NCBI GenBank assembly: GCA_009929485.1 | Contig: SAAJ01000027.1 | Span: forward strand, 1-42,724 | Direction: 5' to 3' | Length of the DNA: 42,724 bases | Source of the DNA: Negativicutes bacterium | GTDB lineage: Bacteria > Bacillota > Negativicutes > Anaeromusales > Anaeromusaceae | In this document: positions 14,001-36,271 of the stretch, piece after piece | Position numbering within the stretch: position 1 is the first letter of the stretch | How the letters are laid out: each line of letters opens with the position of its first letter | Notes under the pieces: model-generated | Databases searched by the model: none | What the model saw: the letters and a program-made list of their open reading frames with translations, nothing else | Told to the model about the DNA's origin: nothing | Made by a program: the position numbers and the translations under genes

Positions 14001-14001
14001 T

Positions 14002-15533: not shown

Positions 15534-15555
15534 TCCGAATGCCCCCCTTTTGTTG

Positions 15556-15718: not shown

Positions 15719-18700
15719 CTAAATCTTCGCCAGCACTTCCAGCTTCTTACCATCTGTACCGATCTGAACCTTTTCATAATTCACTTTTACCCCATCATCG
15801 AGGTCAATGGCAATACGCGCCAGCGCCAGATGGGCTATCTTTTCATCGTAATCCTTCGTTTCTTGCAGCTGCTTAGTCAGCTTGTCCTTGCGCTTTTCCG
15901 CCATTACCACTTCGCGGGCATTTGTGCTGTTGTCGATGGTTTCCTGCATCCGGACAATTTCGCGTTCGTAGACACGCTGCATCTTGTGTAGATAGTCAAT
16001 ACGTAAATTGCCGATGGTGTTTTCGTCATAACGGTGCATGTAAATCAGGGCCTTAAACCCATTGGCCTTACCGCTGTCAAAGAGCCAGTAAATCGGGCGC
16101 TTTTGGTATATCTTGCAGTGGTCCTTGAAGAAATCTTTGAGGAAGTAGTTGCGGATAATATCCCGAGCAGTATCGCCCTTGCTGCCTAACGCCCTGGCAA
16201 TAAAGTCGAGGTTTTCTTCGAGTTTTTCCACGCCATATACTTTTTTGACAAAAGCAACGAAAAGACCGACGATGTCATCTTCAAAATATTCCTCATCGGT
16301 AATGGGAATAATATTATCCTTATCAGGGATGAATGTGCTGTATTTACTGTCATCCCATTGTCCACCAGCATAGACAAGTCCGTCTTCATCAAGACTGTAG
16401 CGACCAAACATACAGCCAACGGCATACGAAATAAAGCTACGAATATCACGACCTAAATCTGCTTTACGGATAGTTACGTCTTTATCTTCTACGTCTGGAG
16501 TGAGTTCATCTTGGAGACCATAGATTTCGATGAAGATGCGGTTCAATTCTTCTTCATTACTTTTCAATTGAACAAATTGCATCTCAGATAATTGTTGCCA
16601 CTGTACATAACTTTCAGTAATAGAGTTTTCACCACATAGCAATAAATGCTTTTTAAAATCCCATGATGTCTCGAAAAGGTCCCACTCGTTCCGAGATAAA
16701 CGGATATTATCATGTACAATTCTATCAACATCTATCTTCTTATTTTTATTAAATAATATGGGCAATCGTGCAATATCACCGGCTTGAAAATTAATCGTAG
16801 GAGCAAGAACCTGCAGCATTTCCAACGCAATTAGCGTATTGCAATATCCCAATAAATAGAATACATTTTCTTTTGACGTATAAAATGACATTCCAGCAAT
16901 ATCTGAAAGGTTACATAATTTTAGTCTAAACGATGGTTTTACTGACGAAATTAAAGACCAAGAAACAGAGAGTGTAAACTTTAAATCTAAAGGATAATCT
17001 TGTACATTACGCCCGTCAGCTTTTGCACAATTGAAAATCTCATTTCCACTATTTTCCCAATTAACTACATAATCATTATTTCCATACCATTTTCTGAAAT
17101 CCCCTCCTTTGTTATAAGGGAACCATTTAGCGCTTGACTGTATTGCTTCATTTGCGTCTTTTGCTGATAAATTAGTTTTATTACTCGAAACTTCCCACCA
17201 TAGACGTAAAAATCTGCCATTATCTCCTGTTTTCATCCCGTTCCTGGCAGTAGCTAAATTACCAAGCAGCACCCCTTCTTTAAATGCCTTAATAAAATTG
17301 TAACTTAATGAAAAAACAAGAGGTGTTCCAGGAATCGAATGAAATTCACTATTTTTTTTTGCAAAACAGTCATTAGCGTCTTTCTTACGCAAAAAGACTT
17401 TGTTCTTATCATCTGTCACACGTCCGGTATTCAAATCAAAGTATATCCCGTTATACTCTTTGATCGTGGAATTACGGATAACAAAAGAGCAAGCATGCGC
17501 CACTTGTGAATTCATTTCAGGAAAGCTATTAAAACCTATTTTAAGTAGATTAACAATCCTCTTTTGGAGAATCTCTTCTCTTAAATCTTCAAAGCTCGTT
17601 AAAAACATCCACGACTGCATTGTGATCATAGCTTGATAGCCATTTTTTTTTGCCATTTGCCCACATTTTTTGATGAAAACTGCATACAAATCTGCCTTAG
17701 CATTAGGATAATTATCTTTAACATATTTATTAGTTTTAGGTTCTGAGTTTGTCATTGCCATATACGGCGGATTAGTCACTACCACGTCATATTTTCTCGC
17801 CAACACAGCGCCAATTTCTACCAACAAATACAATTGAGATTGGGTATCGTCCACGCCAACCATATCAAAGGATAACTGTCCGGTCAAATCCAGCTTATCA
17901 ACAAACTGGCGCAGCAGTTCCCAATCATAGCTGTCCACGTTCAAGATGGAGCCGTATTCCTTGGCGTCAATAAAGGTATCCAGCAAACCTTGTATTTGCA
18001 GCAGCGCCACATTGCGCTGCATTTCGTCCATGCCAGCACCGAAGTATTGCATTTGGTCACGATTGATGCCGTTGCTTTCTTGAATAGCATATACGTGCAG
18101 CTTGGTCTCGCCGTTCAAAATGCGGCGATTATACTGTCGCGCCTTCATCATCAGGGCAAAATAGGCAAGCTGATAAGCACGATTATCAATATCAAGTCCA
18201 AAAATATTGTTTTCTATAATGCTCTTAGCAGCATCGCGCTGACTGTAGCCGCAGCTTTCATAGATCTGCATCAATACGTCAAAAGCATATACCAAAATAT
18301 GACCGCTTCCCATGCAAGGATCTATGATTTTCACATTTTCAATGTGAAAATCAGTGTAGAGAGTTAAGAGTTGAGAGTTTAGTTGCTTGCGAACCTCTGG
18401 CTCTTGTTCAGCTTCGGTCAGATAGTATTTCCAGCCCATTTTATCTGCAATATTTTTTTCTTTTGCTATCCGTTCTTGTTCGCTTAACTCTAACCCCTTC
18501 AAACTCCACTCAATGAAAATCCTCCCCAGAGAATTTTCGACCATATACCGCACGATCCAATCGGGAGTAAACAGCTGCGTAGCGGCAGGAATGCGTTCTT
18601 TAGTAATTTTGACGTTCTTCTTTAATAGCGCAAAGGTTTCATCCTTGGGCTCTGTGTTGTAGTACTGATAAAGCCAGCCAATGATCTCTACCTGGCCGCT

Positions 18701-19513
18701 TGGAGCCTCTTCTTCTATCAATTCACCGCGCTTGATAGCCTCTTCGTCCGCTTCGGTTCTAATTTTGAAGTCCTCTTCCGGAAGATCATGTACCAGATGA
18801 TACACTACGCCTTCTTTATCGGTAAAGGCCACATTCAGAAGAAGCTCGGTATAGTCGCTGGTCTTTTCAAACAGATTGGGAAGAATGGCATTGAGCGCAT
18901 TGCACTGCTTAATAAAGAGCAGTCGAAAAAGCTCATCCAGCAGATTTGCCTGCTTCAGCTGCATAATGCGGTCTTTTTCATACGGAGTAAACTCAAGGTC
19001 TGTGTCAAAGGGATTGGTCACCAAGTCCGGTTCGTCTTTGCCTGCGCTTTCTGAGGAAATCACGCGTACGCGCGAAGGAATATATTCGTTAACCTCCATA
19101 AAACGCACAGCAATTAAACGGTTAAACCAAGTATAAGCTACTTCTTCCACAACAGCTTTAAAAGCAATGTTGAGAGTTGAGAGTTCAGAGTTGAAAGATA
19201 AGAGTTCAGGTTTGAGAGTTGAGAGTTCAGAATCTAAACTCTTATACCTGCTCCCTAAACTCTCAGTTCTAAGCTCTAAACACTTAACCCTAATTTTCTC
19301 CGCTAAGGCTTCGCGTTGTTTAATTTCAACGCCGGAAATAGAATACGGCTCTTTCGTGCCGATATCAAAAAACTGCACGTCCTTTGTCGATTGCGGCAAA
19401 GGTTCTTTTATTTCTTTTTCGGAAATGCCAAGCAGTCCCGCCTTATATGTGATATCGGCAATCAATTTATTTCTGGCCCATATGGCAAAGTTCTTAATGG
19501 CGCTTTTGTTCAT
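15719..19513 (-). CDS. pglX: BREX type 1 adenine-specific methyltransferase PglX
   Basis: A protein of about 1264 residues. The ATG at 19513 is preferred over 19522 because AGGGGGAG is about 10 nt from it. Motif I DPCMGSGH lies near 396-403 and the N6-adenine motif NPPY near 577-580; YTWFNRLIAVRFME (about 127-140) is typical of PglX. It methylates host DNA at the BREX site, and phage lacking the mark is blocked. Two segments are repeat-encoded and unlike PglX: residues about 77-115 (LELRTESLGS, SELSTL twice) and about 375-386 (QLNSQLLTL). They lie between, not within, catalytic motifs. The frame is intact, so function is plausible. Confidence 0.95.
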   Translation of the reverse strand: MNKSAIKNFAIWARNKLIADITYKAGLLGISEKEIKEPLPQSTKDVQFFDIGTKEPYSISGVEIKQREALAEKIRVKCLELRTESLGSRYKSLDSELSTLKPELLSFNSELSTLNIAFKAVVEEVAYTWFNRLIAVRFMEVNEYIPSRVRVISSESAGKDEPDLVTNPFDTDLEFTPYEKDRIMQLKQANLLDELFRLLFIKQCNALNAILPNLFEKTSDYTELLLNVAFTDKEGVVYHLVHDLPEEDFKIRTEADEEAIKRGELIEEEAPSGQVEIIGWLYQYYNTEPKDETFALLKKNVKITKERIPAATQLFTPDWIVRYMVENSLGRIFIEWSLKGLELSEQERIAKEKNIADKMGWKYYLTEAEQEPEVRKQLNSQLLTLYTDFHIENVKIIDPCMGSGHILVYAFDVLMQIYESCGYSQRDAAKSIIENNIFGLDIDNRAYQLAYFALMMKARQYNRRILNGETKLHVYAIQESNGINRDQMQYFGAGMDEMQRNVALLQIQGLLDTFIDAKEYGSILNVDSYDWELLRQFVDKLDLTGQLSFDMVGVDDTQSQLYLLVEIGAVLARKYDVVVTNPPYMAMTNSEPKTNKYVKDNYPNAKADLYAVFIKKCGQMAKKNGYQAMITMQSWMFLTSFEDLREEILQKRIVNLLKIGFNSFPEMNSQVAHACSFVIRNSTIKEYNGIYFDLNTGRVTDDKNKVFLRKKDANDCFAKKNSEFHSIPGTPLVFSLSYNFIKAFKEGVLLGNLATARNGMKTGDNGRFLRLWWEVSSNKTNLSAKDANEAIQSSAKWFPYNKGGDFRKWYGNNDYVVNWENSGNEIFNCAKADGRNVQDYPLDLKFTLSVSWSLISSVKPSFRLKLCNLSDIAGMSFYTSKENVFYLLGYCNTLIALEMLQVLAPTINFQAGDIARLPILFNKNKKIDVDRIVHDNIRLSRNEWDLFETSWDFKKHLLLCGENSITESYVQWQQLSEMQFVQLKSNEEELNRIFIEIYGLQDELTPDVEDKDVTIRKADLGRDIRSFISYAVGCMFGRYSLDEDGLVYAGGQWDDSKYSTFIPDKDNIIPITDEEYFEDDIVGLFVAFVKKVYGVEKLEENLDFIARALGSKGDTARDIIRNYFLKDFFKDHCKIYQKRPIYWLFDSGKANGFKALIYMHRYDENTIGNLRIDYLHKMQRVYEREIVRMQETIDNSTNAREVVMAEKRKDKLTKQLQETKDYDEKIAHLALARIAIDLDDGVKVNYEKVQIGTDGKKLEVLAKI
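18355..18388. repeat. Repeat-derived segment C inside pglX
   Basis: A short run of GAGAGTTAAGAGTTGAGAG type units in frame within pglX, encoding QLNSQLLTL just before the methyltransferase motif I. It is the same unit family as arrays D, E and F. Short, so chance similarity cannot be excluded. Confidence 0.6.
19168..19288. repeat. Repeat-derived segment D inside pglX, with orientation switch
   Basis: About 120 bp inside pglX made of units such as GAGAGTTGAGAGTTCAG (19172-19230) that change to the reverse type (CTAAACTCT, CTCTCAGTTCTAAG) after about 19233. In frame it encodes alternating SELSTL-like residues at PglX positions about 77-115. The two halves are largely complementary. Confidence 0.8.
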
Positions 19514-19530
19514 CAGTCGCATGCTCCCCC

Positions 19531-20021
19531 TTAGTTTTAGAGTTGAGATTTTAGAGTTTAGAGTTAAGAGTCAAAGATTGAGGGTTTAGTTGCAAAGAGA
19601 CAGTTTTAGTAGTAGCTGTTAACATTTTCCTCAATTCGAGACAGTCCGTTGTGATTGATTCAAATTCAGCTTGGCTTAAATAATCCGTTTCATAGAGGAT
19701 TTCCAACCAATATTGCGTTTCCGCACATTCTTTCAAGGCAATATATACCTTGGCTAAAAAGTCTTTTTTAGAGCTGCCGCATCCAGCCTCAGCTAAATTT
19801 GCACCAATACTCGTACCCGAACGCAAAAGCTGTTTCGACAATACATATTCTTTTTTCTCATCGCATAAATACTTATAAAGCCTCACGATTCGCACTGCAA
19901 AATGCTTACTCTTAGATCTCGCCGTATTTTCATTTTCCATAGGTCTCACCCTTCAGCCAACCTAATTTATCTAATCTCTTATCTCTAAACTCTGTCCTCT
20001 AAACTCTGCCCTTAAAACTCA
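19531..20021. mobile_element. Candidate repeat-flanked four-helix-bundle unit
   Basis: A four-helix-bundle gene is bracketed by arrays E (19531-19592; TTTTAGAGTTTAGAG type) and F (19964-20021; CTCTAAACTCTGTCCTC type), which are in opposite orientation and so form imperfect terminal inverted repeats; AGAGTTTAGAG occurs in E and, reverse-complemented, in F. The unit sits between brxC and pglX, genes that are normally adjacent. No transposase or clear target-site duplication is visible. Calling it mobile is inference from structure. Confidence 0.5.
19551..19940 (-). CDS. Four-helix-bundle protein (S23/TIGR02436 family)
   Basis: A 129-residue protein from ATG 19940, with GAAGGGTG about 9 nt before it. 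The sequence KHFAVRIVRLYKYL, then SKQLLRSGTSIGANLAEA, KDFLAKVYIALKECAET and WLEILYETDYL, is the hallmark of the family first known from intervening sequences of 23S rRNA genes and related to Avd of diversity-generating retroelements. Family members bind nucleic acid or pentamerize; their role as free genes is unknown. The last residues (LNPQSLTLNSKL) and the stop codon come from repeat array E. It is not a BREX component. Confidence 0.9.
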   Translation of the reverse strand: MENENTARSKSKHFAVRIVRLYKYLCDEKKEYVLSKQLLRSGTSIGANLAEAGCGSSKKDFLAKVYIALKECAETQYWLEILYETDYLSQAEFESITTDCLELRKMLTATTKTVSLQLNPQSLTLNSKL

Positions 20022-23000
20022 ATATTAACCACAGTATCTTCTTCCAGTTCGCCCAAAATCCGCTCGCGCAGCGAAGCCAGGTGCTTATCTACGTCCTGGG
20101 CCGATTCAATCTGCCAGGAAGCGGCCACATTGACGGTTTTGATGCTGATGTTCTTGCGTTTTTTGATTTTTGGCGCTGGTATAGGTGACTGCTCTGGTTT
20201 GTCATAACCGGTTTTTCCTTCTGCAACGACCTTCGCTTTTTCTAGTTCCAGTACGATTTGTTTATCTTTATTGTCAATTTCGGTTAACAAGCGTAGTTTC
20301 AGAGCATCGGCTTCTACTTTTATATTTTGCAAAACCGCTACGTTATTGCACCTGTCCGCTTTAGCGCGAATCTCGTCAAAGAGCTGTAAAAATCTTGGGG
20401 TCAGCTCATTTTTATAGCTCTTGCTTCCAAGCTTTTCAAACACTCTGCTTCTGGCATCTTCAATGGCATGCAAAACAGGCTCTTCCATACTCTGGAGAAC
20501 CTTTAAATAGGCATTATTAAAGCGGTCTAGCAGTTCCGGCAGCTTAGGAATATCCTTATAGGGAGCTTCTTTGTGCAAGATGCTCTTAATCGCAGCAACC
20601 GCAGTTTCTACTTCTTCGTCAACAATAAAGGTCTTGCTATCATCATAGATATGCATACTTTTTAGCGCATCTTCAAAGATTTTCTTTTGCTCTCCTGCAA
20701 AAAAGGCTTTTACCGGCTCATAGTCATCGGCGAACTCAAGATAGTCGTCGCGGTCTGTATGGATTTTCTTGAAAAATTCCATCGGCCCTTGCAGTTGGAT
20801 AACGGCGCGCAAAAGAGCTTTCCCGTTGGCAACGGTCTTTTTCCCTGGCAAAGCCGCAGCTTTCTGCTGAATCTCGATTTTTTCCAGATCCGTGAGCAGC
20901 GTTTGTCCGTAGGTCTGAAAGGACTTCATCATCGCGTCGTCTTCGTCGTTGATGCTGGAGACGCCAAAGAGCTCCTTCATAACCTCCCGAACGCTTTTTT
21001 TCTGACTGTCATTGGCTTTTTCACGGCGCTCGGTGAGCAGTTTTTCCACATACTCTTTCTTGGTCAGATAACGAATAATTTCTTCTTCACTCTTATTCAT
21101 AAGAGTAACGCTGCTGCCGCTGACAGTAAGGGCTATATCGCCATTTTTAAAGAGTTTGGCCACCAGCCACTCTACATCGTCTTCCACAAAGCCGTAGGGC
21201 GCTTTCATGAAACGATCCAGCAGGCTCTTCATGGACGTTTTGAGGTGCGAAATCGAATTGGCAGAAATATGGCTTTGCATATCGTTTAGGGCATGTACAT
21301 TCGCAGGAGTATCGCCATCTAGATTCAATACCTGCTGCGACGAGTGTCTAAACAAGTCGCGGATGTTGGCTTCGCTCATGGCCACGTCAATATAGCTTAG
21401 CTTATGATACACAGTTGAAACCAAACGCCCTAAGGCGTCATTGATTCTGGCGGCTGCGTCCTTACTGGATATTTGCGCCTTATCGCCATTTACATAGATA
21501 TCCGCCTCTTTCATAGCTTCTTGCAAAAACAACTTGGCATTGGCGCTGCGTTCGCGCATTTCAACCCGCTTGGCTTCTTTAATGGTTTCAAATTTAGTCA
21601 GTGTTTTGGAAGTAGTAAGGCGCAGGTACTTTTCAATTTTTAAGGCGCTGCGCAGTTCATCAATAAAAACGGTGTCCTTAGGCAAAACAACCAGCACTTC
21701 CTGTTGCTGCCCGGACAGCATGCGCAGCGTCATTTCATCATCGCCGTACTCGGATTTTGGCGTCAGTATATGCACGCCGATAGCATGGTTTTGGTTGGCC
21801 TTATAGGGACGGTCGTCAACCACCTGGTTAAAGGAAAAGTTGTAGCGTCCGTTAAACGACGGATAGCGATATTTTTTATCGGTAAAAATATCCTCAAAAA
21901 TCAGCTCCGACAGTTTACCCAGCACTTCGCCCATTTCCACGTTCTGATTTTCGATTTCCCGGTTAATTTCCTGCTCTTCATCAGTCAGGAAAACATAGAC
22001 GTCGCCATTCTTTTGCACCAAAGTCTGACGCACAAGTACCTTTAAGGCTTCTTCCACTTTCTTTTTTAGGTCGATGCGGTCTGCGTCAATATCGTCAATC
22101 ATCAGACTGGTGATATTATCAAGATTGGCAGTGATCTCTTTGACATATTTAATCATAAACAGGGTCTTTAGTACGTTTATCGCAAAGCAGTCTTCTTCCC
22201 TGTCCGGATTGATATAATCGTTTTCCCCGGCCCGGATAATGACGCCTTTGTGGCTATGATCCAGAAATTGATGCAAGGCGTCGTAAAAGACATTGAACGG
22301 AATCACCGCGCCGGTTTCCTTATGCATCAGTTTCATGGCTGATTCTTTAAAAAGGGCAATCATGGAGCGTTCCCCTTCGGACAAATGCTTGCCCGAGGCC
22401 CCATGCGTACGAATGGACGTCAAAACGCTTGCCAGCAGGTTGAACTGATACGGCACAAACGGATACACCGCCGCAAAATCTTGTTCATCCCCATAGAGTT
22501 TTTTATCAATGCCATCATTAAAGACAATCAGGTTTTTGATAATGGTGGCTTTTTGCTCATATAATAGCCGCAGGGTTTGCTCAGGAGTGGGTTTTTTAGC
22601 CAAAATCCTTTTTTTAATGACTTCATCGACATTGGCCGAAGACAGCGACAAACGGGTGTCAAAACGCCCCTGAATTTTGGAGAAGTCATTGCTCCGCAGC
22701 CCCATATCTTTGGCGATGGCGTCAATATCCTGCTGACTGGTAACAACAACCCATGCCTTGCCTTGGCAAGCAGTGCCAAGGTCTTCGGTCACTGTTTGCA
22801 GGTTCAGCATGAGTTTGGTATCGTCCCCTATGTACTGGCCAATTTCATCCACCAGGAACACCACGTGATGATTGTTGCCTTTACGGTCAATATACTCCTT
22901 TACCAGTTTGGCAAAGTCTTCAATACTGATGGTATAGGTCTCTGTCGCTTTTTCGCACCAGTTGCGGGCCGCCGCCTCGCTCATGAACTCCATAGCTGCA

Positions 23001-23644
23001 AGAACGTCCACAATGGCGTCTTGAATAAAATCAAACTTATGCCGGGACTGCTCCCAAGGCTTGCCGAAATCGTCGGCAAATTTTTCTTTGAATTCCTCAT
23101 AGCGCCCAGCTTCCGTCAGGGTGCGCTCCAAATCCGCCAAAAATGGAATCGAACCGCAGAAGCCCTGCATTTCGTTGAATACTTTTAAAAACACCGACAC
23201 AATGGCGTCTTTAGACTGCTTGCCGGTCATTTCGCTTTTGGAGTCAATATTAAAGAGAACGACATCGGTCTGAGGCGCAATACTGGCAGCCAAGCGCATA
23301 TCCGCCAGCACCATGGCATCGTCAATCTTATGGTCTTCAGTAAAATAATCTAAGGCTTTTTTGCCGTTTACCTCTTTATTTTCGAGCAGGTACGACAAAA
23401 TTTTCAGGAAGTGGGATTTACCACTGCCAAAGAAGCCGGAGATCCAAACGCCCATCTTATCGGTATGCCCGTTAATCCCCCGTTTATAGCTACTGAAAAA
23501 CTCGGCAAAATGCTTGCGGAGTTCCCGCGTAACCACGTACTCCTCCAGCTCTTGACGAATATTTTCATCGTCTCCCTGACCTACCTTAATAACGCCTTTA
23601 ATATCACGGTCAATCTCTTTGGCAAACAGTTCTTTTAGTATCAT
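20012..23644 (-). CDS. brxC: BREX P-loop ATPase BrxC
   Basis: A protein of about 1210 residues. The preferred start is ATG 23644 with AAGGAG about 9 nt upstream; a TTG at 23662 overlapping the brxB stop is the alternative. Walker A GFFGSGKS lies near residues 70-77, and Walker B VVFLVDEIGQY near 270-280. BrxC/PglY is the large ATPase of BREX, required for defence and methylation. Long helical regions follow the ATPase core, and a basic linker (PKIKKRKNI) lies near the C-terminus. The stop codon falls at the edge of repeat array F, whose GAGTTT supplies the final two codons. Confidence 0.95.
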   Translation of the reverse strand: MILKELFAKEIDRDIKGVIKVGQGDDENIRQELEEYVVTRELRKHFAEFFSSYKRGINGHTDKMGVWISGFFGSGKSHFLKILSYLLENKEVNGKKALDYFTEDHKIDDAMVLADMRLAASIAPQTDVVLFNIDSKSEMTGKQSKDAIVSVFLKVFNEMQGFCGSIPFLADLERTLTEAGRYEEFKEKFADDFGKPWEQSRHKFDFIQDAIVDVLAAMEFMSEAAARNWCEKATETYTISIEDFAKLVKEYIDRKGNNHHVVFLVDEIGQYIGDDTKLMLNLQTVTEDLGTACQGKAWVVVTSQQDIDAIAKDMGLRSNDFSKIQGRFDTRLSLSSANVDEVIKKRILAKKPTPEQTLRLLYEQKATIIKNLIVFNDGIDKKLYGDEQDFAAVYPFVPYQFNLLASVLTSIRTHGASGKHLSEGERSMIALFKESAMKLMHKETGAVIPFNVFYDALHQFLDHSHKGVIIRAGENDYINPDREEDCFAINVLKTLFMIKYVKEITANLDNITSLMIDDIDADRIDLKKKVEEALKVLVRQTLVQKNGDVYVFLTDEEQEINREIENQNVEMGEVLGKLSELIFEDIFTDKKYRYPSFNGRYNFSFNQVVDDRPYKANQNHAIGVHILTPKSEYGDDEMTLRMLSGQQQEVLVVLPKDTVFIDELRSALKIEKYLRLTTSKTLTKFETIKEAKRVEMRERSANAKLFLQEAMKEADIYVNGDKAQISSKDAAARINDALGRLVSTVYHKLSYIDVAMSEANIRDLFRHSSQQVLNLDGDTPANVHALNDMQSHISANSISHLKTSMKSLLDRFMKAPYGFVEDDVEWLVAKLFKNGDIALTVSGSSVTLMNKSEEEIIRYLTKKEYVEKLLTERREKANDSQKKSVREVMKELFGVSSINDEDDAMMKSFQTYGQTLLTDLEKIEIQQKAAALPGKKTVANGKALLRAVIQLQGPMEFFKKIHTDRDDYLEFADDYEPVKAFFAGEQKKIFEDALKSMHIYDDSKTFIVDEEVETAVAAIKSILHKEAPYKDIPKLPELLDRFNNAYLKVLQSMEEPVLHAIEDARSRVFEKLGSKSYKNELTPRFLQLFDEIRAKADRCNNVAVLQNIKVEADALKLRLLTEIDNKDKQIVLELEKAKVVAEGKTGYDKPEQSPIPAPKIKKRKNISIKTVNVAASWQIESAQDVDKHLASLRERILGELEEDTVVNIEF

Positions 23645-23658
23645 TCGCTTCCACTCCT

Positions 23659-24240
23659 TCAATCTACGAGCCGAAAGGCCCGATAATAGTTGTCGTCTTT
23701 AATGGAGCCAAACAAAACCAACTCTTGTCCATCGTATTTCCCCGGATAAAACATGACTACAGGCACACGGTCCATCGCCTGGTGCAGATTGTTAAGCACC
23801 TTATGAGAGCGCAACAAGGGATAGCATTTCCCAATGCCTGTCAAGAAAACTACCGCCTCTTGAGGCGTGCGCTCTTGAATGTACTTCACAATCAAACTAT
23901 CGTCATCGTTAATTCGTAGCAGGTTCCCCACAGCTTTTACAATGCGATCCATCCCTTTTTTCTTTTCAAACTGCACGCATTGCTCCAAAAAGCCTTCTGC
24001 TTCCAACAAATCAACCAGAATATCATAGAGGTCAAACACCAACAGCTCAAAGCCGTCACTCCCCTTGCTATTCTTGGACTTCATATAGTGCACACGTTCG
24101 CGTACAAGAAGCTCTTGCTGCGCCGGATAGTCAAACACATAATAGCCGACTTCATTTCCCAACCCCTTGTTTTCGCGAAACTCGGGACGCTTAATCAGCT
24201 GCTCCACCGCATCCAGCCGTTCTTCTAAGGTGGTCATCAT
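23659..24240 (-). CDS. brxB: BREX protein BrxB (DUF1788)
   Basis: A 193-residue BrxB. Typical segments are the start LEERLDAVEQLIKRPEF, YYVFDYPAQQELLVRERV and the C-terminal PVVMFYPGKYDGQELVLFG. The family (DUF1788) is a core type 1 BREX component of unknown enzymology, needed for defence. It begins with ATGATG overlapping the brxA stop by 4 bp, with AGGAG upstream, and its stop nearly abuts brxC, so translation is coupled. Length is normal. Confidence 0.95.
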   Translation of the reverse strand: MMTTLEERLDAVEQLIKRPEFRENKGLGNEVGYYVFDYPAQQELLVRERVHYMKSKNSKGSDGFELLVFDLYDILVDLLEAEGFLEQCVQFEKKKGMDRIVKAVGNLLRINDDDSLIVKYIQERTPQEAVVFLTGIGKCYPLLRSHKVLNNLHQAMDRVPVVMFYPGKYDGQELVLFGSIKDDNYYRAFRLVD

Positions 24241-24839
24241 CTCACTCCTGTCAGTGCATGAAGCAGTACGTCCATGCTGTTAGCTGTTAAGTATTCTTCT
24301 ACAGATTTATCCAAAATGGGTTTTAAAATTTTCCGCGCCCCAACTCCATGCTCCAGCAAACCGGCTTCCATAAGCATGGTTTTGTAGCAAGTACCCAATC
24401 GCTTTAGCGTATAATCCTGCCATGCTGCCACTTTCTCGCTTTGGAGCTGCTTGTTCTTAAAAAAGATGGCTATATCACTATCAGCCAAGGTATCCATTCC
24501 CAGCAGCAGCTTTTCGCGATACACCTCATACATAAATTCAAAAAACAAGCAATCGCTTCGCATAATTGCCAGCAAGACAATGAACTTCTGATTAGATATG
24601 TCACAGTCTTCAAATAGAGCCAGGAACGAAGCGTCCAGCTCCTTTACACGCGTAGAAACCGAATTAAAAATTTGCACAGCCCTTGTCTGAGTGGGAGCGG
24701 CAAATAGATTATCCTGAAGGTTCAGTTGCTTAATTTCCGGCAGCGTCTTTCCCTGGTTCAACAAGCCAACCACTTTCCGAAACTCAGCAAACCAAAAGGA
24801 AAGCTTAACCATCCCTGCACTATATTCTTTCTGTTTCAT
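24237..24839 (-). CDS. brxA: BREX protein BrxA (DUF1819)
   Basis: A 200-residue BrxA starting at ATG 24839 (MKQKEYSAGMVKLSFWFAEF), which has GGAG about 10 nt upstream. The open frame extends to 24878 but has no site there. The helical protein with LNLQDNLFAAPTQTRAVQIFNSVSTR-type core and RSDCLFFEFMYEVYREKL fits DUF1819; BrxA is a small DNA-binding helical protein in solved systems. First of the BREX structural genes, 35 bp after the HTH regulator and overlapping brxB by 4 bp. Confidence 0.93.
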   Translation of the reverse strand: MKQKEYSAGMVKLSFWFAEFRKVVGLLNQGKTLPEIKQLNLQDNLFAAPTQTRAVQIFNSVSTRVKELDASFLALFEDCDISNQKFIVLLAIMRSDCLFFEFMYEVYREKLLLGMDTLADSDIAIFFKNKQLQSEKVAAWQDYTLKRLGTCYKTMLMEAGLLEHGVGARKILKPILDKSVEEYLTANSMDVLLHALTGVR

Positions 24840-24874
24840 CTTTGTCTTTCTCCTATATCCTGCTTCCCTACTTC

Positions 24875-25093
24875 TCACAGCGCCTCATTGGTGATGGGAA
24901 CCACTTCCACAATGTCGCCAATATCGCAGTTAAGGGCGCGGCAAATCTTGACCAAGACGTCCATGGAGACAAATTCATTATTGGAAAGCCTGCTCATCGT
25001 ATTAGGACTAACGCCAATTGCCTGGCGCAGTTCCGTTTTCTTCATTCTCTTGTCGATCAAGAGCTTAAACAGCTTGTTGTAGCATACATCCAT
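24875..25093 (-). CDS. XRE-family HTH regulator preceding BREX
   Basis: A 72-residue Cro/C1-type helix-turn-helix protein: MKKTELRQAIGVSPNTMSRL forms the HTH, and LVKICRALNCDIGDIVEVVP completes the five-helix domain. There is no partner or sensor domain. AGAGGTG precedes the ATG. It lies immediately before brxA on the same strand, so it is probably the local regulator of the BREX operon. Many BREX loci use a larger WYL-domain BrxR, so this small XRE protein is a different arrangement. Its operators probably lie in the 25094-25300 intergenic region. Confidence 0.85.
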   Translation of the reverse strand: MDVCYNKLFKLLIDKRMKKTELRQAIGVSPNTMSRLSNNEFVSMDVLVKICRALNCDIGDIVEVVPITNEAL

Positions 25094-25302: not shown

Positions 25303-25482
25303 ATGCAAATTGAAAAACTGGTTCTTCACGTATCTGATGCAGCTAGCCTTATCGGCGTAAGCTCTCATAAAATCTACGAAATGATTCGGAACAGGGAACT
25401 GCCTGCCTACAAAGCCGGAAAAGCATGGAAAATCCCTGCAGACGCTGTGGAAGATTATATTAAGTTACGGCTGAGCAAATAG
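25303..25482 (+). CDS. Excisionase-like small HTH protein
   Basis: A 59-residue protein. The sequence VSDAASLIGVSSHKIYEMIRN and LPAYKAGKAWKIPADAVEDYI is the compact winged-HTH of the HTH_17/excisionase family: a MerR-like helix-turn-helix and a short wing ending in W-K-I-P. AGGAGG lies 8 nt before the ATG. Such proteins act as recombination directionality factors or as small regulators. There is no integrase gene in the window, so the partner is unknown. A second related gene follows at 25602 behind the same 16-bp repeat. Confidence 0.8.
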   Translation: MQIEKLVLHVSDAASLIGVSSHKIYEMIRNRELPAYKAGKAWKIPADAVEDYIKLRLSK

Positions 25483-25601: not shown

Positions 25602-25787
25602 ATGTTTGAGGACTATGGTGATCTTTTAACGGTGGATGAGTTTTGTGAAATGCTCTCCATCGGGAAAAACGGTGCTTACCAGCTATTAGCATCTGGAAGG
25701 GTAAAAGCCTTCCGCTATAACCGGGTGTGGAAAATTCCTAAGCAGGCAGTCGTTGAATATGTGCTTACCCAAAGCAAGTTGACTTAA
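25602..25787 (+). CDS. Excisionase-like small HTH protein, second copy
   Basis: A 61-residue HTH_17/excisionase-type protein: LLTVDEFCEMLSIGKNGAYQLL is the HTH and KAFRYNRVWKIPKQAVVEYV the wing. GAAAGGAA precedes the ATG. It is only distantly similar to the gene at 25303, yet both are preceded by the same 16-bp repeat, suggesting either duplication or joint regulation. It ends next to a terminator-like hairpin and a degenerate copy of the tRNA-Ser flank. A directionality-factor role for a lost or distant integrase is possible; simple transcription control is the alternative. Confidence 0.8.
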   Translation: MFEDYGDLLTVDEFCEMLSIGKNGAYQLLASGRVKAFRYNRVWKIPKQAVVEYVLTQSKLT

Positions 25788-25821: not shown

Positions 25822-25864
25822 AAAATCAAAAGGCTTTGCGGTAAATCGCAAAGCCTTGATTTTA
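25822..25864. terminator. Bidirectional terminator, copy of the tRNA-Ser terminator
   Basis: GGCTTTGCG (25832-25840) and CGCAAAGCC (25847-25855) with flanking AAAATCAA/TTGATTTT give a strong hairpin with T-runs on both sides, serving the convergent excisionase-like and AlbA/HATPase genes. The same hairpin and its right flank recur beside tRNA-Ser at 36220-36265. Confidence 0.75.
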
Positions 25865-25897
25865 TTGATTTTAATGCCAAAGAGGAAGAGACCGTTA

Positions 25898-27340
25898 TTA
25901 CTTCGCCACAAATTTCTGATGACGACTTTTAGGTTTATCAGGTAAAGTCAGTTTCAACTTTCCAGCCTGCACCAACGGCCAAACATATTTCTGCATGGCA
26001 TGGTTCATTGTCTTTAGCCCCACGTACTTTCTTATTTCCTCCCTCGTTCTAGGCACCTTGCAAAAAAATAATATATCTTGCTCTTTTACATGGCTTGGCG
26101 TATCTTCTGCCGCTATACCCCTGTCATTATAGAGGGTTACCGCAAAGCTTCCTCGCGCATCAGCAAATTCCGGTTTCATTAAGCCAGCTTCTTTCATAGC
26201 CCTATAGATGGTTGGTATCCCTGAATATCGGTTCTCAGTAAGCCCCAAGTCTTCCATCATAGTGGCAATAACCGGATTTCTGGTATCTGGCTGCACCTTG
26301 CCTATATTGTCGATTCTAAAACGCCCATAAATACCCCCTGGATTTTTAATTTCCAAACGATTTTTATAGAGCAAAATCTGTATCGGCATTCCTTCCGTAT
26401 GAATGCTATAATCCCTATGAATCAGTGCATTCAAAATAATTTCGCGAATGGCTTCCAACGGATACTCGGTTCGATCATTTCTCTTGCCTGTTTCTTTATC
26501 CACAATCGTTTTTATCGCCATATTTTTATGAACAAACCGTACAGCTTCTTCCAGCATTTCTGGCAGCGTACCATCAATTCGCTTATTATCAATAAATCGC
26601 TCTCCTACACTGCCGGTTTCACCGATTTCTTCTCCCGGAACAACCACAGCTGTAACGCACAATTGCGGGAAATATCCTTGCGGATATTTTCCAAACATAA
26701 GCATGCCCGCTAATGTGGGCGTTCCTCCTCGCGTCACTCCCATTAATTCATATATTTCCGTCACAGGCATCATCGCCAATTTTGGTTTTCTGTCTTTTAA
26801 GGAAATCGTATATTTTTCCAGCTTAGTTTGATCCAACATTGAAAAGTCCAAACGTTCAATCGCACGTATATCATCCTGATACTTTTTCCGGAAGGCATCA
26901 TAGCTGTATATTTCATACTCGGTCATGGGTTCATCCGAATCACCCACACGAATATACGAGCCGGTAAGCCTGCCTTTCCCTGTGTAAAAGCAGGGCTTGT
27001 CCGCAAGTTCTATTTCTGGTATTTCCGCTGCAACAACAATCTGTCCATCGAGCTTGCAGCAGGTAAAAACAGCCCTTACGATAGGCTGCATTTGCTTACA
27101 TTGCGCCACTATCTTCTTTTGCAAATCCGCAGCATTATACACGCCAACAACTTCAAAGCCCGTACTTTCTTTAAGGCCAAACAGAATAACTCCGCCGCCA
27201 GCATTATTGGCAAAAGCAGATATGGTATCATACAGCTTTTTCGGACAATCTATATGCGCTTCTTTCACTTCAATATCATGAAACTCGGTATTAAAGGTTT
27301 GTACTTTCCGAATTAATTCTTCTAAATCTCTTTCAAGCAC
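25898..27340 (-). CDS. AlbA_2/HATPase DNA-binding regulator (Schlafen-type)
   Basis: A protein of about 480 residues. The N-terminal AlbA_2/Schlafen domain shows FHDIEVKEAHIDCPKKLY, then FANNAGGGVILFGLKE and SYIRVGDSD. The C-terminal part has the HATPase_c_4 region (REIILNALIHRDYS, IKNPGG, TENRYSGIPTI) and a winged helix. Such proteins are often annotated as RecG-like or transcriptional regulators; their biochemistry is poorly defined. The GTG at 27340 is 7 nt from AGGAGG and is preferred over the GTG at 27346. The stop lies 13 bp from the degenerate attachment-like sequence. Confidence 0.8.
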   Translation of the reverse strand: MLERDLEELIRKVQTFNTEFHDIEVKEAHIDCPKKLYDTISAFANNAGGGVILFGLKESTGFEVVGVYNAADLQKKIVAQCKQMQPIVRAVFTCCKLDGQIVVAAEIPEIELADKPCFYTGKGRLTGSYIRVGDSDEPMTEYEIYSYDAFRKKYQDDIRAIERLDFSMLDQTKLEKYTISLKDRKPKLAMMPVTEIYELMGVTRGGTPTLAGMLMFGKYPQGYFPQLCVTAVVVPGEEIGETGSVGERFIDNKRIDGTLPEMLEEAVRFVHKNMAIKTIVDKETGKRNDRTEYPLEAIREIILNALIHRDYSIHTEGMPIQILLYKNRLEIKNPGGIYGRFRIDNIGKVQPDTRNPVIATMMEDLGLTENRYSGIPTIYRAMKEAGLMKPEFADARGSFAVTLYNDRGIAAEDTPSHVKEQDILFFCKVPRTREEIRKYVGLKTMNHAMQKYVWPLVQAGKLKLTLPDKPKSRHQKFVAK

Positions 27341-27359
27341 AAGCACCCCTCCTTTCTTT

Positions 27360-27512: not shown

Positions 27513-27610
27513 AAATTCGGCTAAAAATCCCCCATACATACTGGCCGAAATTCATTATTCGCAGCACTAATTTCGGCTATAATATGGCAAACTATAATTT
27601 TAGCCGAAAT
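27513..27610. repeat. Four-copy TAGCCGAAAT motif cluster
   Basis: The motif appears at 27513-27523 (AAATTCGGCTA), 27542-27552 (TGGCCGAAATT), 27569-27579 (AATTTCGGCTA) and 27601-27610 (TAGCCGAAAT), alternating in orientation, so it makes two inverted pairs. It lies immediately after the truncated DUF4143 gene. Confidence 0.7.
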
Positions 27611-30202: not shown

Positions 30203-30478
30203 ATGGTAAAAAAGTATACTGACGAATTTAAAAAAGACGCTCTTAAATTAGCAGGAGAAATAGGCGTCAGTAAAGCAAGCGAACGATTAGACGTATCCAT
30301 TAAAAGCCTATATGCTTGGCAACGTGCAGATCGAATCAAACAGGGCGCACCGCCAAAAGGCCTTAAGGCAGGCGAAAGTCCAGAAGACGGCTTCAAACGT
30401 TTAGAACGAGAAAATGACGAACTGCGTGAAGCCAACATGATTTTGAGGAAAGCACTGGGTTTTATGGCGGGTCGATAG
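30203..30478 (+). CDS. IS3-family transposase OrfA
   Basis: A 91-residue OrfA. The N-terminal helix-turn-helix (YTDEFKKDALKLA, then GVSKASERLDVSIKSLYAWQ) binds the IS ends, and the C-terminal leucine-zipper-like helix (RLERENDELREANMILRKAL) mediates multimerization. GGGGTG precedes the ATG. A G-GGT-TTT heptamer at 30457-30463 lies near its end in the overlap with OrfB, in the correct phase for -1 frameshifting to the fused OrfAB transposase. Confidence 0.92.
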   Translation: MVKKYTDEFKKDALKLAGEIGVSKASERLDVSIKSLYAWQRADRIKQGAPPKGLKAGESPEDGFKRLERENDELREANMILRKALGFMAGR

Positions 30479-31362
30479 CCGGAATTAAACCTCGTCACTT
30501 ATATGCACGGATTGCCGAAAACCGTGGCAAAGCAAGTGTTGCCCTCTGCTGCATGGTACTTTCGGTTCGCCGTGAAGGCTACTATGCATGGCAAAAGCGT
30601 AAATGCCGTCTGAATCAAGACGGCGAACTGGCATCGGCCCTTACTGCAATCAGGAAAAAACATCCGAAATACGGGGTGCAAAGTCTGCTTGATGCATTGC
30701 CTTCGACCATAACTAAGCCGAGCTATGGCAAATGCTATAAACTATGCCGGGAAAACAATTTGCTACATCGACGTAAAACCCCGCGGGGCATCACAAAACG
30801 TAATCCGGAAGATCAGTTAAGTGATGACTTAATCCAACGCGATTTTAAAGCAGCCGAAGCAAACTCAAAGTGGCTTTCGGATATAACTGAAATGAAATGT
30901 GCTGACGGAAAGCTATATTTGGCGGCGGTATTCGACTGTTTTGACGGCGCGATCGTAGGAATGTCAATGGCCTCACATAAACGCGCTGAACTTTGCTCAG
31001 CTGCCTTACTCAGTGCAATCGGTCGTTATGGAAAAAGGAACGGTCTGATTTTTCATTCGGATCGCGGCAGTCAATATACAAGCCGTGAGTTTCGCCAAGA
31101 GCTAAAAAGGCACAAGTTAGAACAAAGTATGGGCCGTACCGGTAGTTGCTATGACAATGCTCGCATGGAAAGCTTTTTTGCTACGCTAAAGAAAGAACTG
31201 ATTTATGAACTGCCTTTGTCTAAACTGACACGCGAGCAGGTTCGACAACGGATTTTTGCCTGGATCGAATCATACTATAATATCGAAAGACGGCATACTT
31301 CCAACGAAGCAAATATGCCGCCTCTTAAAAAACGTGCTTTATTTCAAATTAAGGTTGCCTAG
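30430..31362 (+). CDS. IS3-family transposase OrfB (DDE integrase)
   Basis: The OrfB frame is open from 30430; the first internal ATG is at 30553, but expression by -1 frameshift from OrfA is the usual mode. The DDE catalytic core is intact: D in WLSDITEM, D in FHSDRGSQY, and E in NARMESFFATLKKE. Upstream is the HTH_21-like region (IRKKHPKYGVQSL). Length, about 270 residues from the ATG, is normal, and the protein looks functional. Confidence 0.92.
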   Translation, partial: SQHDFEESTGFYGGSIAGIKPRHLYARIAENRGKASVALCCMVLSVRREGYYAWQKRKCRLNQDGELASALTAIRKKHPKYGVQSLLDALPSTITKPSYGKCYKLCRENNLLHRRKTPRGITKRNPEDQLSDDLIQRDFKAAEANSKWLSDITEMKCADGKLYLAAVFDCFDGAIVGMSMASHKRAELCSAALLSAIGRYGKRNGLIFHSDRGSQYTSREFRQELKRHKLEQSMGRTGSCYDNARMESFFATLKKELIYELPLSKLTREQVRQRIFAWIESYYNIERRHTSNEANMPPLKKRALFQIKVA

Positions 31363-31641
31363 TTTTATTTTTGTTCGTTTTTAGGTGTGCGGTTTTGTTG
31401 ATAGTTTCATTCTATTCATGTTTTATAGTGTAATTTTTATTTATTATATACCGTTATTTTACATCTTTTCATATGGATGTTCAACGTAAAGCTCGGATAG
31501 CGTACAATTAAGTTCGCAAAAGTGCTTAAACGGACCTAAGATAGCCAACGCATTGGCTTTCACTCTCCGTTGCTAATTTCTAAAGATACTTCTTCTACTA
31601 TAGCATTACTTCATGAAAATCTTCAAAAGGAGTGCCTCCAC

Positions 31642-32487
31642 ATGGAACATCCCCAACCCAACCAGCTCGCGCTTTTTATTGACGGCGAAAATACCAAACC
31701 TGATTTTGAACAGTTGCTTTCTTTTTGCAGCTCATATGGAGAAATACGCCTTGCTCGCATTTACGGCAACCGAGATTTGTTGCGCATTTCCCGCTGGCAA
31801 AAAGCCTGCAAGCAATTCCATTTTGAACCGGTTTACTCCGAAAAAGGACAAAAAAACAGCGCCGACATGCTTTTAGTGGTCGACGCTGTAGAAACTTTGT
31901 ATCGTTATCCGGAAATCACCACGTATGTCATTGCTTCTGTAGACTCTGATTTCCTAGCGCTCGTCCATCGGCTTCGTAAGCACAAGAAACAAACCATCGG
32001 TATTTCCACGAGCTATCCTCCTGCCTTACTGCGGGGAGCATTCCATGAGTATCATACTTTGCTACGCCCGGAGTGGGACGTATTTGAATTTTGCGCTCAA
32101 CAATTCTATCTGGCTTATTTAGACTGTCAGGTTTATGATGGCTGGGCCTTAGCCGATGAAATATTTTTTTCTTTGCCGGATCCAGTGCCATTTTTACAAC
32201 GCTTGCACCAAATGGGTTTTGATAGCTTTTTCTCCTTCCTGAAAAACTGCCGAATGTTTTCTATCCACAAGGAGAAAATGCATTTACCCAAAAGTCAGAT
32301 TGTATCCTATTGGATACGCAATCCATTTGAGCTCTTTTCAGAACCAGCAACAGAAAATATTCAGCCCCAATTCCAACAATATGCCCATGATTATTACATG
32401 CGAAATCAGCGCCACGTTTCTACAGGCATTCCTGGTTTGCTACGCCAATTTGCGTCAGCACCACCAGCGCAGACACTAGATTCATAG
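31642..32487 (+). CDS. NYN-domain protein (LabA/DUF88-type)
   Basis: A 281-residue protein from ATG 31642, where AAGGAG sits about 10 nt upstream; the frame opens at 31570 but lacks a site. The NYN nuclease core has its acidic residues in place: D in LALFIDGEN, D in NSADMLLVVDAV, and D in IASVDSDFLALVH. PIN-like NYN domains bind a metal and cleave RNA. The C-terminal part (about 170-280) is probably an OST-HTH/LOTUS-like or unknown helical domain. It stands alone between the IS3 element and the UvrX gene. Function beyond a likely RNA nuclease is unknown. Confidence 0.85.
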   Translation: MEHPQPNQLALFIDGENTKPDFEQLLSFCSSYGEIRLARIYGNRDLLRISRWQKACKQFHFEPVYSEKGQKNSADMLLVVDAVETLYRYPEITTYVIASVDSDFLALVHRLRKHKKQTIGISTSYPPALLRGAFHEYHTLLRPEWDVFEFCAQQFYLAYLDCQVYDGWALADEIFFSLPDPVPFLQRLHQMGFDSFFSFLKNCRMFSIHKEKMHLPKSQIVSYWIRNPFELFSEPATENIQPQFQQYAHDYYMRNQRHVSTGIPGLLRQFASAPPAQTLDS

Positions 32488-32497: not shown

Positions 32498-33775
32498 CTA
32501 AGTACTCTCTCCCTTATGCCCGCCAACATACCCTGCCCTCTCCAGATACGTCCCTCCAGCCATAGAGCCGGCATAGAATATTACCTTTTTCCCAAACTTA
32601 TCCCGTAACCGATCTACGGTAGCATCTAAAGAATGCTGCCGTTCGTCGCCATCGAAAAACAGTTCTAGCTGCTCGTGCCCTGCAGATGATATTTTCCCCG
32701 CTGTCACGTTAACTGAACGCACAGGTTCCCCATGCCAGCGCTTACAAAACTCTTTTCTCGCCAAGTCACTGAGCAAGTCCGTCGAATGCTCTGGCCGAAC
32801 CAGCTTAATACGAGCCGTAAATCCTGGCTGCAGCTCGCGGTCCGAATAACCAATGCCAAGATACATCTCTTGGCATTTTTCTTTATGCTTGCGAAGCCTA
32901 GCGCAGATATCGCCCACCATTTCCTTAATCACAATGAGGATTTCGCTCTGGTCGTAATAGTCCCGCATCAATATTTGGTTCTTACTGTATGACGTGCTCT
33001 TGGGTTTGACCTTCTGCGCAATGATGCTGGCATCCAATCCCCAAGCATGGTAATACAGCTGCAGCCCCATTACGCCCATACTTTTTTGCAGCGCCAACGG
33101 ATCAGCGCGAGCTAACGCCTCTATCGTATAGATTCCCATGCGTTTGAGCTGGTTATCGTACCCCTTGGAGATTCCCCAAAAATCAGTCATAGGGTTTATT
33201 TTCCATACGGTTTGCGGCACCATCTCGTACGTCCACTTTGCGATCCAAGGTGACCGCTTTTTGGCCTCGTTGTCTAAAGCCAACTTGGCAAGGAGCGGAT
33301 TGTCCCCGATGCCTGCAGTCACAATCAGCCCCAGCTCGTCCTTGACCGTATGAAGAATTTTCAGCGCAATGGTTTCTGCCGGGCCAAACAGGTTGAGCGA
33401 TGCCGTCACATCTAGAATGGATTCATCAATGCTATAGACATGCAAATCTTCATCGGTCACGAATCGTCGGAAGATGTTCTGAATGTCTCGATTCCGCTGC
33501 AGGTATAGTGCCATGTTTGGCTCTACGACCATAATCGGTGAGCTCTTGGGAATCTCGAACAGGCGGCTGCCTGTTTTAATGTTGTACTCCTTTTTTACGC
33601 GTGGGCTGCTGGCAAGTACCACGGCACCAGTTCGTCGTAAATCAGAAACAACGGCTATATATGCCTCAAGCGGATCAAAGCCGCGTCGAACCGCCTCTAC
33701 AGACGCAAAGAAGGATTTTACATCGATACACAGCACAGAACGACGCGGGAATTTAGAGAAATCAACGAGACCCAT
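32498..33775 (-). CDS. Y-family DNA polymerase, UvrX-like
   Basis: A 425-residue Y-family translesion polymerase. It has the catalytic CIDVKSFFASVEAV near residue 15 and YSIDESILDVT near residue 115, with intact D and D-E metal ligands, then the HhH thumb (YTIEALARADPLALQKSMG) and the little-finger domain. The ATG at 33775 is about 7 nt from GAGGG; 33781 is the alternative. It overlaps yolD, the normal uvrX-yolD pairing of Firmicute phages and plasmids. A LexA-type box upstream of the pair points to SOS induction. Confidence 0.92.
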   Translation of the reverse strand: MGLVDFSKFPRRSVLCIDVKSFFASVEAVRRGFDPLEAYIAVVSDLRRTGAVVLASSPRVKKEYNIKTGSRLFEIPKSSPIMVVEPNMALYLQRNRDIQNIFRRFVTDEDLHVYSIDESILDVTASLNLFGPAETIALKILHTVKDELGLIVTAGIGDNPLLAKLALDNEAKKRSPWIAKWTYEMVPQTVWKINPMTDFWGISKGYDNQLKRMGIYTIEALARADPLALQKSMGVMGLQLYYHAWGLDASIIAQKVKPKSTSYSKNQILMRDYYDQSEILIVIKEMVGDICARLRKHKEKCQEMYLGIGYSDRELQPGFTARIKLVRPEHSTDLLSDLARKEFCKRWHGEPVRSVNVTAGKISSAGHEQLELFFDGDERQHSLDATVDRLRDKFGKKVIFYAGSMAGGTYLERAGYVGGHKGEST

Positions 33776-33911
33776 CTTCATCCCTCATCTGCTCGTTATG
33801 CTCAGACAGCAGCATCCCAGCCCATTTCATCATGCCCCGGTCCACGTAGAATACCTGAGCCATCTGCTGGTAGAAAGGAATCGTCATTAGATCAACAGTA
33901 TGCTCTTGCAT
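33762..33911 (-). CDS. YolD-like small protein paired with UvrX
   Basis: A 49-residue protein starting at ATG 33911 (MQEHTVDLMTIPFYQQMAQV), with GAGGTG upstream. The upstream in-frame region is noncoding and carries the LexA box. Short proteins of this kind (YolD family, 'WxGM' end, here KWAGMLLSEHNEQM) are found immediately before UvrX-type polymerases; their function is unknown. It overlaps the polymerase start, so the two are coupled. It is short for the family (about 90-110 residues), so it may be a reduced version. Confidence 0.7.
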   Translation of the reverse strand: MQEHTVDLMTIPFYQQMAQVFYVDRGMMKWAGMLLSEHNEQMRDEDGSR

Positions 33912-34038: not shown

Positions 34039-35784
34039 TCAAATCATGCCTAGCTCGCCTGCATATTGCGCTACTGCTTCATCGTAAGCGTCTTTTATTC
34101 CAGATAATGTTGGCCTTATCGTATCCCAACTTCCCATATTGTCTAGAGAATTGCTTACACCTTCTTCTAAAGCAAGACGATATCTATCTATTTGATCCAC
34201 AGTCTCCCTATCAAACAAATTCATAAAATAGCGTCGCCGCATCAAATGAACCAAATACAACCTTGTTTCTATGCCATCATTATTAGCCGGACGGAGAATA
34301 ATCGTACTAAGCTTTACGTTTTTCTCCCCCCCATCCATTCCATATCGTGTAATCGTGAAATTGTTATTGAGCGGTGTAGCACAACATTGCATCATCGTAA
34401 TAATTTTCCAAAAAGCAACCGTTTGCTTATTAGGCTCTACTATAAGTTGCATCAGCTTCATTGCGTGAGAAAACGATTTAGAGACATCAGCATCATAGCC
34501 CAAAAAGATTTGTACTTCCCGCCAGTATTGCCTTATCACTTTTTTTGCTTCATCATAAGAAACTTCACACAGAGCCACTTTGGGGTCCATAAAAAGAGGA
34601 CGAACCTTGAGCTGCTCTTCATTCAACGATTCCATTTTTATCATGGAATGTTTGAGTATATATTGAAATTGGTATAGCTTAAGTTTCATTTCTTCTTTTA
34701 GCAAATTAAACAACACTTCAGAAAATAAGCTTCCACAAAACTCTGTTTTTTCATCCTTCGGCTCAAGACTCCATATCATTCTATAAAATGCAGATATATT
34801 CTCGGGAGGATGACCGCTTAAACCTACATTGTACATTGCAGTTATAAAATCGTTATACCATTTTTCCCAAAAGCTTTTTAGCACCATATACGCTAGAGCC
34901 GCACTTTCTCCCGCCATACGCATTATTTCTTGAAGGAACTCATTCATTACGTATCTATAAGGCTTATTAGGGATAACTGCCCCTTTTGTACCATCAAATA
35001 AGTCCCACGGAATTTTATTTCGATTTTTTAGCATTGCGAAAAAGTTCATTCTATATTTTATCCGTTTTCCATCTTGATCTCGCTTGTTTTTTCGTTTTTC
35101 TTTACTTTTTTCATTATAATACTCTTTAATCGGAGGTGGTTCATAAAGAATAGACTCAAAGCAATCACACAATGATTCATATTCATTTTTACGACTCCCA
35201 ACATCAATACCCCAAAGCACTTTCAAATGATCTTTTATTGTATGATTGTTCCAATGTCTACGTCTTTGCTGATCAGTTTTTCCACTATCATTCAAACCAG
35301 CGATGCGTTTGATTTTAAAAATTTTACTATACTTTGGATTGCTTACTTTCGTAATGCGTGCATATTTTTTTGATTTCTTCAAAAAAATGCTTTTATTCAA
35401 TAGCAACAGCTTCCGTAAGCTATCGCCTTTGTATTCCATGTATTTTATCCAAAACCAAACTGCACCTATACCATATGCACTAAGATTCCGCATAGTTGTT
35501 CTTGTCTTCAGTACTTTGTTCATTTGCTCGACATTCCAAACTTTTTCACCTGACAAGTACATTTTCAAGTCCAAGGCTTCTTTCCGACATTGCAGAATAA
35601 TACTCTTAAGCATTTTATCTTCATATTCCAAATCTTCTTGCGAAAATCCGCTTTTACAATCGGTCACTATCTTCTTGAAAAAATCAGCAAATTGAGTCAG
35701 CCTCTCGTTGCTTGTATCTTCTATTGCTGCGATCAATAGGGCATCAAAAGATATTTGCAAATCTTTAAAGTTCATTAAAGCCAC
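34039..35784 (-). CDS. Unrecognised 581-residue protein
   Basis: I do not recognise this protein. It is mostly helical, with no transmembrane segments, no P-loop and no clear catalytic motif. A strongly basic stretch lies near residues 230-245 (EKRKNKRDQDGKRIKYR), and a KKSKKYARI region near 135-145. Cysteines are scattered without a zinc pattern. The GTG at 35784 is right after GGGGGC; the ATG at 35775 with spacing about 10 is equally good. It is a single-gene unit with its own terminator, lying next to the tRNA-Ser end of the island, a position often held by cargo or defence genes. A structure search is the useful next step. Confidence 0.75.
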   Translation of the reverse strand: MALMNFKDLQISFDALLIAAIEDTSNERLTQFADFFKKIVTDCKSGFSQEDLEYEDKMLKSIILQCRKEALDLKMYLSGEKVWNVEQMNKVLKTRTTMRNLSAYGIGAVWFWIKYMEYKGDSLRKLLLLNKSIFLKKSKKYARITKVSNPKYSKIFKIKRIAGLNDSGKTDQQRRRHWNNHTIKDHLKVLWGIDVGSRKNEYESLCDCFESILYEPPPIKEYYNEKSKEKRKNKRDQDGKRIKYRMNFFAMLKNRNKIPWDLFDGTKGAVIPNKPYRYVMNEFLQEIMRMAGESAALAYMVLKSFWEKWYNDFITAMYNVGLSGHPPENISAFYRMIWSLEPKDEKTEFCGSLFSEVLFNLLKEEMKLKLYQFQYILKHSMIKMESLNEEQLKVRPLFMDPKVALCEVSYDEAKKVIRQYWREVQIFLGYDADVSKSFSHAMKLMQLIVEPNKQTVAFWKIITMMQCCATPLNNNFTITRYGMDGGEKNVKLSTIILRPANNDGIETRLYLVHLMRRRYFMNLFDRETVDQIDRYRLALEEGVSNSLDNMGSWDTIRPTLSGIKDAYDEAVAQYAGELGMI

Positions 35785-35981: not shown

Positions 35982-36176
35982 CTCCAAGCACCCCCTAGAG
36001 ATGCTTATTACCATGCAGTATGTGCATCAGCTTAGCATGTCGAACTGCATCACCAATACAACGTAAGTGGAATCAAAGCGCTTACGTTTATGCTAAAATT
36101 ATCGCTTTTCATTACTCCTCGCTCAGTCCCAAAAGCATAATATACCCCATTCATTTAAGCACCTCATTTTCCTTTT

Positions 36177-36253: not shown

Positions 36254-36271
36254 TTGATTTTATTGAGTTAA

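Follow-up and report, generated by a model that had tools for sequence, protein, structure and literature searches.

Successive insertions at a single RNA gene can give composite islands by tandem accretion, as described at a tRNA or tmRNA gene for the ssrA islands of Dehalococcoides (PMC3146451) and for Shewanella island CGI48 (PMC8978831). In these two cases the islands are nested at one RNA gene and are bounded by direct repeats, which are recognisable 3' ends or short att cores. The tRNA-Ser(CGA) locus explored here is alike in its succession of islands, its boundary repeats and its putative nesting, whereas at the site centred on here, near position 25829, mainly a terminator hairpin is left. 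Tyrosine-integrase islands at tRNA-Ser form a second comparison: contig C96 of the same genome carries int and xis, putative arm repeats and a tRNA half at the distal end, whereas the 25829 site itself has neither integrase nor arm repeats. With intrinsic (rho-independent) terminators the site shares a GC-rich stem, T-rich tails and a position between convergent genes; unlike an ordinary one, it has the sequence of a tRNA terminator 10.4 kb away. A search of literature listings on attachment sites returned nothing on orphan tRNA terminators as island fossils.

The orphan hairpin and its flank

The window is the whole stretch of DNA analysed, 42,724 nucleotides of a Negativicutes bacterium. Its features around the two hairpins are:

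25303..25482, plus strand: second HTH_17 protein
25602..25787, plus strand: HTH_17 protein ('excise' domain family, match to TIGR01764), convergent on the hairpin
25830..25857, no strand assigned: orphan hairpin, copy of the tRNA-Ser(CGA) terminator, bidirectional terminator-like, between convergent genes
25858..25885, minus strand: flank with identical spacer, then decayed tRNA-Ser 3' end (GGCATTAA, CCTCT)
25898..27346, minus strand: AlbA_2 / RecG-C-terminal-like protein of 482 aa, last gene before the scar
36226..36255, minus strand: tRNA-Ser terminator, parent-type copy
36272..36361, minus strand: tRNA-Ser(CGA), anticodon CGA, integration target

Window positions 25780-25930 were used as BLAST query against the whole genome (3.2 Mb, 134 contigs). 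Hairpin and flank (25829-25885) matched the tRNA-Ser(CGA) terminator flank at 36224-36282 with 85% identity over 59 bp (E 6.9e-11), and direct reading found an identical 22-mer at the two sites, 10.4 kb apart; the original prediction of such an alignment, with about 22 identical bases, is thereby confirmed. Position 5382-5440 of C96 matched with a score equal to that of the tRNA-Ser flank and C73:1807-1864 with 83% (E 5.5e-9), the remaining matches being the query itself and its own reverse. Hairpins of this type with both 11-base arms exact occur at four places in the genome, namely on C51, on C96 and twice in the window. An 18-mer running from the hairpin edge into the flank occurs at three, all tied to the tRNA-Ser locus (the tRNA-Ser itself, the distal att on C96 and the 25829 site), and, among 300 class genomes, in two belonging to one species (the source genome and G002).

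Both window hairpins are predicted to form strong folds (z about -5), and terminator scoring picks them out on either strand. The orphan one sits between the stops of convergent genes at 25787 and 25898, and is a predicted intrinsic terminator with GC-rich hairpin and T-rich tail. These properties would suit a plain bidirectional terminator serving two convergent genes, which would resemble the tRNA terminator because the sequence is reused in the genus, with no attachment site involved. The bare hairpin indeed also stands 3' of a single unrelated gene, for chemotaxis, in each of the four genus genomes (C51 in the source genome), and at two further places near, and downstream of, tRNA-Ser in G001 and G003. 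We nevertheless consider this explanation unlikely: copies are few and mostly at one locus, the flank beyond the hairpin is common to the tRNA-Ser copies only, and the C73/G002 copy clearly contains tRNA sequence. Hairpin plus flank did not turn up behind a range of unrelated genes; behind the chemotaxis gene the hairpin is bare.

The flank beyond the orphan hairpin was scored against the tRNA 3' end (CCTCT..GGCATTAA), giving a local score of 11, where a full match gives 44. Of 2000 shuffles, 2 attained this score, as did 110 of 20000 random 44-mers when unanchored and 6 of 4000 when anchored at the hairpin, and six control flanks around five other hairpins of the same type had no such match. 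Likeness to the acceptor end is thus weak, yet beyond chance; of the expected direct repeat at the distal boundary of 25.9-36.27 kb the terminator is intact and the tRNA part weak. Less decayed copies score 18 (C73) and 19 (G002), the latter extending over 73 bp at 88% with 22 bp of tRNA included. In G002 (C1:396714-396786) a P-type ATPase gene now takes its last codons from the decayed tRNA end.

Outside the genus the 22-mer was found in one unrelated yak-rumen contig and one phage contig only. A shorter 19-mer was found in 12 viral stretches, 11 of them new, none of which reaches into the tRNA. Among 20 of 51 phage records matching the tRNA-Ser flank, the matches are mostly to its tRNA part, with several annotated phage tRNA-Ser genes, and a search of plasmids with this flank gave no match. 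One IMG/VR viral contig (L021:1668-1693) lacks the hairpin but has 26 nt exactly in common with the spacer and hairpin arm at tRNA-Ser.

A probable larger element between the tRNA-Ser and contig C96

Further features of the window are:

8112..25093, minus strand: BREX system (brxA, brxB, brxC, pglX, pglZ, brxL) accompanied by AAA ATPase genes, on the side of the scar away from the tRNA
27571..27609, plus strand: 39-bp palindrome TTTCGGCTA..TAGCCGAAA; its only other copy in the genome lies in the tRNA-Ser flank of C96, 5648-5686
30203..31362, plus strand: transposase in two ORFs (HTH_Tnp_1, rve), an IS within 25.9-36.2 kb
31570..32487, plus strand: NYN-domain protein; the module 31627-34000 is 81% identical to part of the G003 tRNA-Ser island
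32498..33781, minus strand: Y-family polymerase (IMS), in the 31627-34000 module with NYN
34039..35784, minus strand: 581-aa protein without family match, adjoining the tRNA end; among 60 genomes matched in its own only
36176..36197, minus strand: two direct 11-mers (TTTTGACCTCA), putative integrase arm sites; the same 22-mer stands at C96:5185-5206

The tRNA-Ser(CGA) gene is an island hotspot. G002, of the same species, represents the empty site, its tRNA-Ser being directly followed by the hairpin and then chromosome. In the source genome the same chromosome resumes on C96, behind a tRNA 3' half that begins in the anticodon loop. C96 encodes an HTH_17/Tn916-Xis protein, a tyrosine integrase, an AAA protein and an AlbA_2 protein ending beside the att; the actual xis-int pair of the locus is on C96. 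The 22-bp double repeat lies inside both ends (36176-36197, and C96:5185-5206, inward of the distal att), in the same sense relative to the tRNA and with no further exact copy in the sequences scanned. From their sequence and position the two repeats are putative integrase arm sites of one element, which would place the 25829 site inside it, as a scar of greater age. The 39-bp palindrome likewise links 27.6 kb to the att flank on C96, and occurs also in G002 (413097-413135). A tRNA half at the distal end, an integrase, putative arm repeats and an empty site being all present, the window leftward from 36.27 kb probably belongs to a larger integrase element ending at 36.2 kb and on C96, a link inferred across intervening contigs that are not joined.

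Genes of the stretch at 25.9-36.2 kb encode AlbA_2, a DUF4143 fragment, EamA, TauE, MarR, an IS, NYN, a Y-polymerase and two unknowns. No Phage_integrase was found among the scanned proteins of 25.9-36.27 kb, only the IS transposase; the 581-aa protein was considered as integrase and rejected, having no family match. The idea that this stretch is a separate old element is plausible, though no integrase was found and it is nested in a larger element. Strains lacking it do exist (G001 and G002, at the tRNA-Ser locus), but they also miss the rest of the larger element and therefore do not separate the two parts. It had further been proposed that excisionase-like genes stand next to its end. This part finds no support, since the HTH_17 genes are on the other side of the scar and the xis-int pair is on C96. 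Relatives of the 25602 gene had an integrase within about 1.5 kb in 1 of 11 cases, on the opposite strand, and type I restriction genes in two, and the gene was rejected as an excisionase; no integrase gene adjoins the 25303 gene in the window. On that side, the BREX cluster contains a PtuA-like (8112-9302) and a HEC-02A-like (14505-15596) AAA ATPase gene, and pglX and brxC are separated by a gene for a 23S rRNA intervening-sequence protein.

Rightward of the tRNA (36272-39727), identity of the window is 89.8% with G002 and 90.2% with G001, as against 98.5% (C51), 99.2% (C96) and 97.5-98.4% (C73) for other contigs compared with G002. Either this flank was imported, perhaps with the element, or the contig, C100, belongs to another strain; contamination of the assembly is listed at 4.36%, and only one full tRNA-Ser(CGA) gene was found in it. 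The variable arm of the window tRNA differs from that on C96, and a 3' half supplied by the element was considered; this is not safe, because the right-hand chromosome is itself only about 90% identical to G002.

Recurrence of the tRNA-Ser terminator in other genomes

At the same tRNA, G003 has a 26-kb island with integrase, in which a module near the distal att is 81% identical to 31627-34000 and is followed by AlbA_2. Window and G003 island have gene order and orientation in common (UmuC, NYN, AlbA_2, att). The AlbA_2 proteins belong to different families, however. That of the window finds no match at 1e-40 in G001-G003, and its identity with the AlbA_2 of C96 is 24%. The closest relatives of the window AlbA_2, at 71-72%, are in G004, which is of another family, and G007. 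In G004 the gene lies 2.3 kb from tRNA-Ser(CGA) and the terminator of that tRNA is repeated before and after it, the three copies found in the whole genome (84% complete) all being at the tRNA-Ser locus. In G007 the gene is near a tRNA-Gly instead, and there is no such terminator repeat.

For a broader survey, tRNA-Ser(CGA) was sought in 160 class genomes and found at 79 places in 76 of them. The 75 places outside the genus were combined with the four genus genomes and G004 to a set of 80, of which the 75 regions with a complete flank and 2 kb or more of downstream sequence were tested, the other five being dropped. We scored downstream recurrence of the first 60 bases flanking the tRNA, with 25 cross-genome flanks and 60 scrambled hairpins as controls, both applied to the downstream side alone. 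Recurrence exceeded all cross-genome controls in 14 of the 75 regions and all scrambled hairpins in 15; in 66 no repeat beat the scrambled-hairpin control by 10 or more. Seven, in which G000 (the source genome) and G002 are one species, were clear on both controls, with margins of 7 or more and 10 or more respectively: G154, G004, G002, G066, G000, G151 and G114. The tRNA half at the copy is kept in G154, partial in G002 and not clearly present in the other five. G001 and G003 came out negative, their tRNA-Ser being followed today by a different terminator; old-type hairpins stand at about 2.3 and 4.7 kb, measured downstream from the tRNA in G001 and from the distal att in G003. Many terminators in the 75 regions start with TCAAGGCTT or a near variant, so that tRNA-Ser(CGA) is a usual place for this hairpin type. 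Nearly identical tRNA-Ser terminators were seen in different families, at L188 (G019) and in the C2 flank of G001 after 164526, as though a terminator moved along with the 3' half of its tRNA.

Copies consisting of the terminator only, in G004, G066, G151 and G114, could also mean that the terminator itself is the site at which the integrase of some islands acts, so that a tRNA half was never in the repeat. The phage contig with its exact 26 nt of spacer and hairpin arm would agree with this. We regard it as very improbable, given that the C96 and G003 sites begin in the anticodon loop, that the copies in G002 and G116 retain partial tRNA ends suggestive of decay, and that no integrase stands beside the copies in G004, the one terminator-only case with genes read.

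A probable decayed attachment site and its implications

We read the 25829 site as the remnant of a decayed attachment site, with a probability of roughly 70%. The original prediction of such a site is thus probable, with an 18-mer confined to the locus, a hairpin type at home there and parallels elsewhere, while its tRNA remnant is thin. An old island would have integrated at tRNA-Ser(CGA) through site-specific recombination, by which the original 3' half of the tRNA and the terminator attached to it were displaced to the far end of the island. Being functionless, the displaced tRNA half would have decayed; the hairpin would have survived because the two genes now converging on it can still use it to end transcription. 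The island (about 25.9-36.2 kb) would have lost its integrase, or never had one, and may now be carried inside the larger composite element between the tRNA-Ser at 36.2 kb and C96, which has its own xis and int. The 25829 site would then be a late stage of a process in which an att site, once displaced, sheds its tRNA half but retains the terminator. Direct observations are the repeat, its restriction to the locus, the hairpin, the two outer ends with the putative arm repeats that they share, and the parallels in other genomes; order of events, selection on the hairpin and descent from one integration are what we infer from them.

Against this reading stand the weak tRNA part, the lack of arm repeats around the site and of an integrase in the stretch, the bare hairpin on C51, the 66 of 75 regions in which the scrambled-hairpin control was not beaten by 10 or more, and the fact that a bidirectional terminator is exactly what a pair of convergent genes requires. 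The inner att is moreover not fresher than the one on C96, as the latest insertion would need to be, so that the composite-element step has to be assumed. Copying of the hairpin among the copies at this crowded locus by homologous recombination or gene conversion, with no integrase, is a mechanism to which we give hardly any credence: the locus is a patchwork, with a relic of a G003-like island end after a chemoreceptor gene in G002, but gene conversion leaves the parallel at the same tRNA in another family unexplained.

If the decayed-site reading is right, a terminator that has survived can mark where a degenerate island ends, the layers of insertion at one tRNA can be ordered, and the occurrence of a BREX-bearing segment beside cargo of DNA-repair type in one composite element is explained. 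Orphan copies of a tRNA's own terminator may even be a general fossil record of island insertion, in which the tRNA half decays and the terminator is kept, a generalisation that we offer tentatively and at somewhat less than even odds. If true, such hairpins would order and bound old islands that are missed by repeat finders seeking tRNA ends.
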